Shown here one piece after another: positions 47,392-51,511 of a DNA stretch of 64,000 nt. Every line of letters starts with the position of its first letter. Within the stretch, counting starts at the first letter, position 1. The position numbers were made by a program, and so were the translations under genes. Source of the DNA: Gammaproteobacteria bacterium (GTDB taxonomy: Bacteria; Pseudomonadota; Gammaproteobacteria; Steroidobacterales; Rariloculaceae); contig JAJDVG010000008.1 in assembly GCA_022826245.1 (NCBI GenBank), forward strand, positions 124,001-188,000, given 5' to 3'. Below the pieces are notes generated by a model. It was not told where the DNA came from and made no database searches. It saw only the letters and a program-made list of their open reading frames with translations.

Positions 47392-48738
47392 TTACGCCCG
47401 CTTGTACGCACTCAGCGCCAGCATGAGCGCGATGGTGTTGTCGCGCGTCTCGCGGAAGAAGGCGAGCGAGAGTTCGGGAATCGGGCACTGGAGGATAGGT
47501 TCCTCGTTTTCGGCCGCGATGAGTTCGGCGCGCAGCCTGCGATCGGCGCCTTCCGGGCCGATCTCAAGCACCAGCCGATCGTCGTCGTGTTCGGCCCTTA
47601 CGGTCGTCCGGCCGCCGCCGATGTATCGGCCCTCAAGCTCGCCAAGCTCGAAGGGCAGCGAGCGCGGCGTTCTCGCCGCCATGCGTCCGCTCAGTTGCTG
47701 GCAGAGCACGGTCAGAATGTAGTCGCGCAGATGGGAGAGTTGGGCATTGAGGCCGACGACAATGGCGAGCTTCGATCGCGGATCGTACCGCAGCCCGATG
47801 CACTGGCCGCGCGTCTGGCCGTTGTGACCGAGGAAACCGTCGCGCTGGTGCGCCGTTCCACAGCCGAAGGCGACCGGACGCAGATCCGCGTAGGCACCGC
47901 CCACGACGGCCGGTAGCTCGACGGCGCGACGCTGCAACAATTCAAGCGTGGCGCTGGACAGCGGCCCGGCCGTGCTGCCGTTTGGCGTTGCAAGCGCCTC
48001 GGCAAGGGTGAGCAGATCGGCTGCGGACACCGCAAACCGGGCGAACGACGGTTCCCAGAACTCCGCCATGGCCGATACGGCCGCGCTCGGCCGGAAGCGC
48101 TGCGTTGCAGGGTCGAAATCGTGACGTCCGGCGCTCTTCGTTCCCGATGAACCCGTGCCGCAATCGCGCGTGGAGATGCCGAGCGGATCGAGCAGCTTTT
48201 CGCGAATCAGTTGATTCGAATCCCGACCCGTGACCCGCCGGACGATTCGGCCGAGCAGCACGGCTTCGCTGTGCTCGTAGCTGAATACGCGACCCGGTTC
48301 AAAGAACTGCGGCGCCGACCGAAGATAGTCGACGAAACGATCCCATGTGAGCGACCGGCCTTCCGCCTCGTGGATGCTGACGCCGCGGTAGCCGCTCGTA
48401 TGCGACAGCAGATGCCCTATGCGCACCGAATCGCCGGCCCGGACGTCGCGCAACTCGGTGAGGTATTCGCCGATCGGCGCATCGAGGTCGAGCTTGCCCT
48501 CGCGGACGAGTTCGAGAACGACGGCGGCCAGCAGCAGCTTCGTTACGCAACCGATCCGGAATTGCGAGTGCTGCGACATCTTGACGGAGCCACCGGCCGC
48601 GGTGGCGCCGACATTGACATGGATGCGCTGCTGAAGGTTGCTTATCGCGACCGAGATGCCCGGAACGCGGGTTTGCGCGCGGACCTGCGTGACGAAAGCG
48701 TCGATCCGGGCCGCGACCGCATCGGGAGAATGCTGCAT
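47392..48738 (-). CDS. Beta-lactamase-fold protein with Cys in place of catalytic Ser (copy 1)
   Basis: Predicted 448-residue protein without signal peptide. It belongs to the class-C beta-lactamase/esterase/transpeptidase family, but the SxxK motif reads 'GCVTK' (Cys64, Lys67; codon TGC). The second motif is Tyr154-Glu-His and the third 'HNG' at 305-307. A C-terminal 100-residue extension ends 'LALSAYKRA'. ATG 48738 follows GGAG by six bases. It lies directly upstream of precursor 3 on the same strand and divergent from the HlyD-like gene. A Cys nucleophile fits an acyl-thioester intermediate better than beta-lactam hydrolysis (inference). Confidence 0.8.
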   Translation of the reverse strand: MQHSPDAVAARIDAFVTQVRAQTRVPGISVAISNLQQRIHVNVGATAAGGSVKMSQHSQFRIGCVTKLLLAAVVLELVREGKLDLDAPIGEYLTELRDVRAGDSVRIGHLLSHTSGYRGVSIHEAEGRSLTWDRFVDYLRSAPQFFEPGRVFSYEHSEAVLLGRIVRRVTGRDSNQLIREKLLDPLGISTRDCGTGSSGTKSAGRHDFDPATQRFRPSAAVSAMAEFWEPSFARFAVSAADLLTLAEALATPNGSTAGPLSSATLELLQRRAVELPAVVGGAYADLRPVAFGCGTAHQRDGFLGHNGQTRGQCIGLRYDPRSKLAIVVGLNAQLSHLRDYILTVLCQQLSGRMAARTPRSLPFELGELEGRYIGGGRTTVRAEHDDDRLVLEIGPEGADRRLRAELIAAENEEPILQCPIPELSLAFFRETRDNTIALMLALSAYKRA

Positions 48739-48938
48739 GAGCTGCTCCGATCGTGGACGTGCAAGTCGTGTTATTTCATCGCATCGGCGGCGCGGGCGAT
48801 ATCCGAATTTCCGGGCATTGTGCGAAGAAACGACGGTTGCAGGATCATCGCTTCCATCGGGTATCGTCATGGCAGCCATCGTCAACCTTGTTGTCGAGAC
48901 TCTCGAAACGGTTTCCAACCGCGGAGCGCCGCCTCCCC

Positions 48939-50210: not shown

Positions 50211-51511
50211 TGCGCCTGTCGCACTGGCGACGATCCAGGACGTTTCGGCCAGATGCATCGGCCGTTCCAAAGGTAGCGCCGCGAGCCCCGATCGTGCGCA
50301 ATGAACTGCACGAACGGAAACCTGCCCGCGGCGCCGGGTTCCGGCAGGAAGATATCGTCGGCCGCCGGCCGCAACCCTGTGCTGAAACGTTTTCCGAAGC
50401 TTGATGGGCGTTTTCGGCGCGTGCTGTCCACCTCCATCTGCAATCCGCCATCTGCGCAACAGCTAATGGAGACGGACTCCGAGGCGCTGCGGTAGATTCC
50501 CGCATACCGGTGCGAATCCATGGCTTCGATCTCGTCGGAGGTCAGTCGTCTCGGCATAATCAGCCCGGAAAACTCCGGCAGGATTTCGCCGAACAGTCGC
50601 GCGGCGACCAGGAGCGCCGGCTGTTGACGCGAAGCGACGACGAGCGCCGTTCCGTGTGCGGGGCGAATGCGCACGAGGACGGATGCACCGGGCCAGGTGG
50701 AATGATGGCCGAACCAGTTGCGACCGTACGACTTCCAGCCGTTACAGATACCGCGTTCGAAAGGACTGAAGCCCGGCAGCCTGAAGATGGCGGTCGGCCA
50801 GGAAAGCGGATCGTAGCTCATGGCGTAGCGCAGGAACCGCAGCAGATCGATGACGGACACGGCCAGGTCCTCGCCGACGGAGGGACATATGCGCGCAGCG
50901 GCGGCCTCGCCGGCCGGGGCGCTGCCCTGCCCTGCGCCGAGTCTCAACGGCCGGAACAGGCGCTCCCGGAGCAGCGCTCTCCAGGTCGTTCCAGTGAGTT
51001 TTTCGAGCACGGCGGCGATCAGCCAGGCGCCGGCGTTCGAGTAGCTGTAGAGCGTGCCCGGCGAGAACAGTCGCTCGGCGGCCACGAGCTGCCGCGTCAG
51101 GCGCTCCGCATCGATGCGCCCGTTCGCCAGCTGCGGCATCCCGCACAGCGCCGAATCGTCGAGCCCGTGCGTGTGATCGAGCAGGTGCTGGAGCGTGATA
51201 CGCGAGTAGACGCCTGCCGCATGTGCGGTCGCGTCACCCAGATACTCCGCAACGGGGGAATCGATCCCGACGCGGCCCTGGCAGACCAACTGTCGAAGCA
51301 ACGCGCCAGTGAAGAGCTTCGTGATGCATCCGGTTCGGAAGGGTTCAGGCTCGCCGTTCGCATCGTCCGCAACCCTGGCGACACGGGATTCTCCGGAATG
51401 CGTAACGCCGACTTCAATGCGCCTGGGCGCCTCGCCCTGCGAGATCTCATCGAGCCGCTGTTGCAGGTAGCCGGGTTCGATGAACGTGCGAATGTGGGCA
51501 GGTGACGGCAT
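50204..51511 (-). CDS. Beta-lactamase-fold protein with Cys in place of catalytic Ser (copy 2)
   Basis: Predicted 435-residue cytosolic protein. The nucleophile motif is 'GCITK' (Cys62, Lys65; codon TGC), the second motif a normal 'YSN' (157-159) and the third region 'GHHSTWPG'. It shares fold and the Cys substitution with copy 1 but is otherwise diverged, so the change was kept through divergence. ATG 51511 is chosen; ATG 51529 in frame is also possible. Its 3' end overlaps the convergent HlyD-like gene by seven bases. Divergent from the ligase gene. Confidence 0.78.
   Translation of the reverse strand: MPSPAHIRTFIEPGYLQQRLDEISQGEAPRRIEVGVTHSGESRVARVADDANGEPEPFRTGCITKLFTGALLRQLVCQGRVGIDSPVAEYLGDATAHAAGVYSRITLQHLLDHTHGLDDSALCGMPQLANGRIDAERLTRQLVAAERLFSPGTLYSYSNAGAWLIAAVLEKLTGTTWRALLRERLFRPLRLGAGQGSAPAGEAAAARICPSVGEDLAVSVIDLLRFLRYAMSYDPLSWPTAIFRLPGFSPFERGICNGWKSYGRNWFGHHSTWPGASVLVRIRPAHGTALVVASRQQPALLVAARLFGEILPEFSGLIMPRRLTSDEIEAMDSHRYAGIYRSASESVSISCCADGGLQMEVDSTRRKRPSSFGKRFSTGLRPAADDIFLPEPGAAGRFPFVQFIAHDRGSRRYLWNGRCIWPKRPGSSPVRQAHQ

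Follow-up and report, generated by a model that had tools for sequence, protein, structure and literature searches.

Among the largest enzyme superfamilies is one that is defined by the Ser of its SxxK motif, the residue that beta-lactams target, and we know of thiol versions of this motif solely as laboratory mutants. LovD and the macrolactin acyltransferase acylate the hydroxyls of small molecules with a Ser nucleophile, and among ribosomal peptides the lipolanthines and selidamides are acylated by GNAT-type acyltransferases. When the acceptor is a thiol, a thioester enzyme intermediate is needed, as in the DHHC enzymes. PBP-type thioesterases, as described in PMC11735501, possess a catalytic Ser tetrad together with a lipocalin-like domain and work on thioester-bound peptidyl groups; the same paper mentions a cyclising thioesterase with a different fold that performed better after an engineered Ser-to-Cys change.

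The window, the whole stretch of 64,000 nucleotides analyzed here, belongs to a 3.6 Mb genome with Candidatus Rariloculus versatilis among its relatives. An earlier note had reported that both of its beta-lactamase-fold proteins, here BLc1 and BLc2, carry Cys in place of the catalytic Ser. Re-reading of the motifs gave GCVTK and GCITK, both in PF00144 proteins, and the interval described in the note runs from the stop of BLc1 (47392) to the ATG of BLc2 (51511). An HlyD gene stands between the two on the plus strand, and the bacteriocin locus around them was absent from that note.

Compared with the described systems, BLc1 and BLc2 resemble the PBP-type thioesterases SurE (6KSU/6KSV) and Ulm16 (8FEK) in fold and in a long sequence match that continues past the catalytic domain; however, these use Ser and serve NRPS, whereas BLc1 and BLc2 have Cys and lie in a bacteriocin locus with no NRPS among its Pfam-scanned genes. 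With the macrolactin acyltransferase (6KJH) they share the fold and, as proposed below, acyl transfer, but unlike this enzyme and LovD they have Cys. The acyl group proposed here on a ribosomal peptide is reminiscent of lipolanthines and selidamides, although the enzyme would be a beta-lactamase fold with Cys instead of a GNAT-type acyltransferase. The thioester acyl-enzyme proposed here would be shared with DHHC palmitoyltransferases and ketosynthases, whose folds are unrelated to BLc. Like class II bacteriocin and microcin loci, the locus has double-glycine leaders, a C39 exporter with HlyD and small membrane proteins beside the precursors; unlike them, it adds an acyl carrier protein (ACP), an acyl-AMP ligase, two Cys enzymes and a lone C-terminal Cys, and P1 scores below the curated Pfam cut-off (Bacteriocin_IIc, 21.8 bits against 27.1).

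The locus around BLc1 and BLc2

Judged by its genes, the stretch in which BLc1 and BLc2 lie is a class II bacteriocin locus, with double-glycine-type leaders, a C39 exporter and HlyD all present (Table 1). The precursors had no sequence match in the PDB. A defence system was considered as well and rejected, as PADLOC returned no match.

Table 1. Genes and remnants of the locus, in order of their position in the window.
Feature	Position	Strand	Remarks
Acyl carrier protein (ACP)	41780..42046	(-)	PP-binding, GLDSL site
C39 peptidase-permease-ATPase exporter	42086..44308	(-)	leader removal and export
Small membrane protein after P3	44449..44646	(-)	candidate immunity protein
Precursor P3	44704..45006	(-)	leader MRELSNEELLLVSGA; core end ...TYFFGC, single Cys; start position ATT
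Truncated tandem copy of BLc1 3' end	45167..45357	(-)	89% DNA identity
Small membrane protein after P2	45621..45803	(-)	candidate immunity protein
Precursor P2	45803..46096	(-)	leader MRELSDTELLLVSGA; Cys-free core
Small membrane protein after P1	46617..46826	(-)	candidate immunity protein
Precursor P1	46887..47177	(-)	leader MRELSAAELLLVSGG; core end ...SWWTC, single Cys
BLc1	47392..48738	(-)	PF00144 protein, 448 aa; ATG at 48738, stop ends at 47392
HlyD-type periplasmic adaptor	48939..50210	(+)	between BLc1 and BLc2
BLc2	50204..51511	(-)	PF00144 protein, 435 aa; ATG at 51511, stop ends at 50204
Acyl-AMP ligase	51618..53144	(+)	AMP-binding; closest to acyl-CoA synthetases among the NCBIfam models; oriented divergently to BLc2

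Orthologues of BLc1 and BLc2 were found in three further genomes: G020, G034 (Candidatus Rariloculus versatilis) and G055, which belongs to another genus of the same family. The gene order of the window recurs in G020, but with two precursors. G034 has one precursor, and its ACP was not seen because the contig stops inside the exporter gene. BLc2, exporter, HlyD and BLc1 of G055 stand together in one stretch, with a rhomboid-family protein (L039:8442-10336) between HlyD and BLc1; the small ORF before the rhomboid protein also has a C-terminal Cys (...LLSVGC).

Several features of the stretch around the precursors deserve mention. The ATT of P3 at 45006 stands where P1 has ATG, directly after the same GGAGGTGG, and the next in-frame ATG would give a leader five residues shorter. 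Next to P3, the truncated duplicate of the 3' end of BLc1 (45167-45357) is apparently the remnant of a tandem duplication. Another remnant (46200-46642), between the P1 membrane protein and P2, gave no DUF2335 match; its counterpart in G034 (L038:12276-12749) is a DUF2335 protein (E 2.2e-17). Between 43900 and 47700 the window and G020 are mostly 98-100% identical where aligned, and the flanks roughly 70-96%. The dS values of P1 and P2 were 0.013-0.014, versus at least 0.14 for every other gene compared. By these values, this stretch with P1, P2 and the membrane proteins was recently exchanged between the two species.

The cysteine and its conservation

In the Pfam scan BLc1 and BLc2 matched PF00144 with E-values of 2.4e-45 and 2.8e-36 (155.6 and 125.8 bits, above the curated cut-off of 27), and scored 58.6 and 24.8 bits against the class C beta-lactamase model NF033085 (NCBIfam), below its cut-off of 415. 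The Cys enzymes are a novel variant within this known fold family. Since simple hydropathy revealed no obvious signal peptide at either N-terminus, both are probably cytoplasmic proteins rather than periplasmic beta-lactamases.

The first motif reads G63-C64-V-T-K67 in BLc1 and G61-C62-I-T-K65 in BLc2, at the position of the family SxxK, and the Tyr of the second motif is retained in both (S-Y154-E-H and S-Y157-S-N). The catalytic Ser of PF00144 is thus absent, with Cys in 8/8 orthologues; the motif-1 Lys and the motif-2 Tyr, which the earlier note had read as kept in the two proteins of the window, are invariant in all eight. Where motif 2 has Asn, BLc1 has His, and YSS stands in one of the BLc2 proteins. 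The third motif, GHNG in BLc1 and GHHS in BLc2, is variable among the orthologues (GHNG, GIAG, GHHS, GHQS). In BLc2 of G020 (L037:10790-12331) and of G034 (L038:6552-8027) the catalytic half is followed by a low-complexity insert of variable make-up, which is missing from the BLc2 of the window.

Gly-Cys-x-x-Lys occurs in all eight BLc1 and BLc2 orthologues of the four genomes, although BLc1 and BLc2 are only 22-24% identical to each other (23-24% for the two of the window); identity to the orthologues of the three further genomes was 93, 83, and 43% for BLc1 and 63, 61, and 41% for BLc2. At the aligned column Ser was found in 36/36 other homologous ORFs (35 distinct, one protein being present twice; eight further rows are copies of the BLc genes themselves and stand outside the 36). 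The genome of the window has four more PF00144 genes, each with Ser; three of them are within the 36, and the fourth (L006, S-T-A-K) was read separately, being too distant for the alignment. As Cys is found in 8/8 orthologues against Ser in 36/36 other homologues, its presence is not due to chance. Chance mutation and assembly error were both ruled out as its source, with Cys in every orthologue across four assemblies. The dN/dS ratios (0.19-0.47 for BLc1, 0.35-0.37 for BLc2) indicate that both genes are under purifying selection, and silent codon differences surround the Cys among the orthologues; therefore, time for a change had existed. The view of the earlier note that the substitution is maintained, and no stray mutation, was borne out: every close homologue found in this gene context has Cys, and none has Ser.

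In the phylogenetic tree the BLc1 orthologues and the BLc2 orthologues each formed one group (support 100/100). The free tree placed the two groups apart with weak support (82/55), and a tree joining them was 1.52 log units better and not rejected (p-AU 0.623). All eight proteins may share one Cys ancestor; a single Ser-to-Cys change followed by duplication would be the economical though unproven reading, and we make no claim of convergence.

The spread of the motif was followed with a DNA pattern for F-x-x-G-C-[VIM]-T-K-[LF] in 369 genomes of the class and 398 of the phylum, the two sets overlapping. Outside the own genome it matched four places (L044, L046, L047, and L049; three class genomes and one of the phylum), and 0/4 fall in a PF00144-like ORF, the pattern being narrow enough to miss other CxxK forms. 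Three of these places have no PF00144-like ORF of 60 codons, and the one ORF at the fourth (78 codons) shows no likeness. With at most four candidates scored per genome, the A1 profile picked up nothing related at E<=1e-30 in the 368 class genomes besides the own one. A scan of genome contigs by two exact peptide patterns, of limited recall, gave back the three genomes already known together with a single protein of the Ser type, and viral contigs gave no CxxK match. Searches of the open-licence PMC literature for natural CxxK members, for Rariloculus or for such a locus brought up no paper.

Among solved structures the best sequence relative was SurE (E 2.4e-33), which also matched over the longest stretch (profile 41-445), followed by alkaline D-peptidase and the esterase IS11. 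The fold search listed IS11, a Pyrococcus PBP homologue, SurE, Ulm16 and the macrolactin acyltransferase. In VIA-align the top row, with many rows tied, was LACTB (Z 23.9, rmsd 4.1, 318 residues), and the macrolactin acyltransferase (6KJH) reached Z 23.5 (rmsd 4.2, 316 aligned). The two AlphaFold2 predictions reached low confidence (mean pLDDT of 58.8 and of 59.8); nevertheless, the fold assignment can be considered safe. In the region where PBP-type thioesterases have their C-terminal lipocalin-like domain, the match of the profile to SurE extends to position 445 of 463, and strands are predicted in what is a weak part of the model; most VIA-align rows stop near 354.

Ligase, carrier protein and precursors within the order

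A ligase orthologue at E<=1e-130 was detected in 4/196 genomes of the order. These are exactly the four with BLc1 and BLc2; among the remaining ones the count was 0/192. In G055, the most distant of the four, the orthologue (60% identity) lies on another contig beside a divergent ACP, and this pair is unlinked from the BLc genes. G132, a congener of G055 that is 88% complete, is without both ligase and BLc. Because three of the four BLc-bearing genomes belong to one genus, the co-occurrence counts as two lineages and not as four events.

A lone Cys stands at the C-terminus in four of the five distinct precursors of the BLc-bearing genomes. It is the sole core Cys in P1 (WWTC), P3 (YFFGC) and the G034 peptide (SFLSC); the fourth, found on a third contig of G055 by the precursor profile search, has the leader SIRELTAAELELVSGG, ends in LATSFC and is followed by a membrane protein. 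This G055 precursor is diverged and lies apart from the BLc genes. Cys is missing altogether from P2, and therefore not every precursor would be modifiable at Cys. As a control, the precursor profile was run over the 196 genomes of the order, listing 34 places, 27 of them in BLc-free genomes. A terminal Cys was found in 0/11 readable leader-type precursors from BLc-free genomes (L078, L079, L080, L081, L085, L090 twice, L095, L097, L100, and L105); the remaining control places hold no leader peptides or are the two further G015 places left out. Independence cannot be assumed for these counts, since P1 and P3 are homologues of each other and of the G034 peptide, and 7/11 controls form one peptide family. 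The best control was G066, in which a precursor with a homologous core (WSDLGGAMAGGAITGG...) ends in AAEEF and is accompanied by a small membrane protein, HlyD and a C39 exporter of 51% identity; the 19.9 kb read there gave nothing that matched BLc, the ligase or the ACP. A separate family of double-glycine peptides (leader MREL..., core ...YEG...SHIIERVA...) recurs within family f6 of the order (L079, L081, L085, L095, L097, L100, and L105).

Proposed acyl transfer and its alternatives

Starting from what the sequences establish, that is the Cys and its conservation, the content of the locus, the joint occurrence of ligase and Cys enzymes and the C-terminal Cys of the precursors, we tentatively propose, with confidence somewhat short of even, a path from the ligase through acyl-ACP and an acyl-Cys of BLc to the bacteriocin. 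BLc1 and BLc2, with their penicillin-binding/class C beta-lactamase fold, would be cytoplasmic acyltransferases. The acid that the acyl-AMP ligase activates and loads onto the phosphopantetheine of the ACP would be a carboxylic one, probably a fatty acid. Lys and Tyr would activate the Cys of BLc, which would receive the acyl group from the ACP as a thioester. BLc would then hand the acyl group to the precursor, most likely to the thiol of the lone C-terminal Cys, before leader removal and export by the C39 exporter. A Cys nucleophile would fit such a reaction because a thioester acylates a thiol at little energetic cost, which a Ser oxyester does not do easily. What we infer are the acyl group, the role of the ACP as its donor, the acceptor and the way in which BLc1 and BLc2 share the work. 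Weighing against this path are the Cys-free P2, the G034 contig that stops before any ACP, the separate location of the precursor and of the ligase-ACP pair in G055, the kinship among the counted precursors, the single genus behind three of the four genomes and the low confidence of the structure models.

The donor-side evidence is silent on the acceptor, so the same ligase, ACP and acyl-Cys enzyme might serve another residue of the precursor or a co-made small molecule. P2, free of Cys, would suit this, as would the hydroxyls acylated by LovD and the macrolactin acyltransferase; we nevertheless regard it as somewhat unlikely, since it leaves unexplained both the replacement of Ser by Cys and a terminal lone Cys in 4/5 precursors versus 0/11 controls. 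The earlier note had suggested acyl or peptidyl transfer. The acyl part gained indirect support from the ACP and ligase in or with the locus and from SurE, Ulm16 and the macrolactin acyltransferase, while the peptidyl part found no specific support. BLc1 and BLc2 might cut or ligate the bacteriocin, by cyclisation or C-terminal processing, as their PBP-type thioesterase relatives would; SurE is the best solved sequence match, both it and Ulm16 are among the high-ranking fold matches, and the engineered Ser-to-Cys gain in a cyclising thioesterase of a different fold (PMC11735501) points the same way. However, this would leave ACP and ligase unexplained, the locus has no visible NRPS as a source of peptidyl thioesters, and a free N-terminus would be unavailable in the cytoplasm because the precursor normally keeps its leader until it reaches the C39 exporter; peptidyl transfer is therefore unlikely.

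As hydrolases, BLc1 and BLc2 might correct mis-acylated ACP in the manner of a thioesterase or thiol esterase, or might confer immunity by cleaving the peptide or its acyl group. Hydrolases abound in the fold family, and two paralogues might share out transfer and editing. For hydrolysis, though, Ser should do equally well, and all other homologues examined kept it; every precursor is moreover already paired with its own small membrane protein, which makes a hydrolase quite unlikely. That the Cys is non-catalytic and both proteins are scaffolds or pseudoenzymes appears very unlikely: no activity is known, and the motif-2 substitutions (His in BLc1, YSS in one BLc2) and the variable motif 3 would agree with it, but Gly-Cys, Lys and Tyr are invariant in 8/8 despite the low identity between BLc1 and BLc2, with silent codon differences around the Cys.

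The acylation of the C-terminal Cys would amount to a naturally Cys-based class of the penicillin-binding/beta-lactamase fold that S-acylates an exported bacteriocin with a dedicated ligase and ACP, a possibility that we hold with clear reserve. If true, nucleophile and acceptor have both turned into thiols. A Cys lineage that is maintained in nature and has a thiol acceptor and a plausible acyl donor would show the turn of this fold from hydrolysis to thiol acylation. For genome mining, CxxK together with ACP, C39 exporter and C-terminal Cys offers a handle, and the Cys lineage would indicate an unrecognised route for acylating ribosomal antibacterial peptides.
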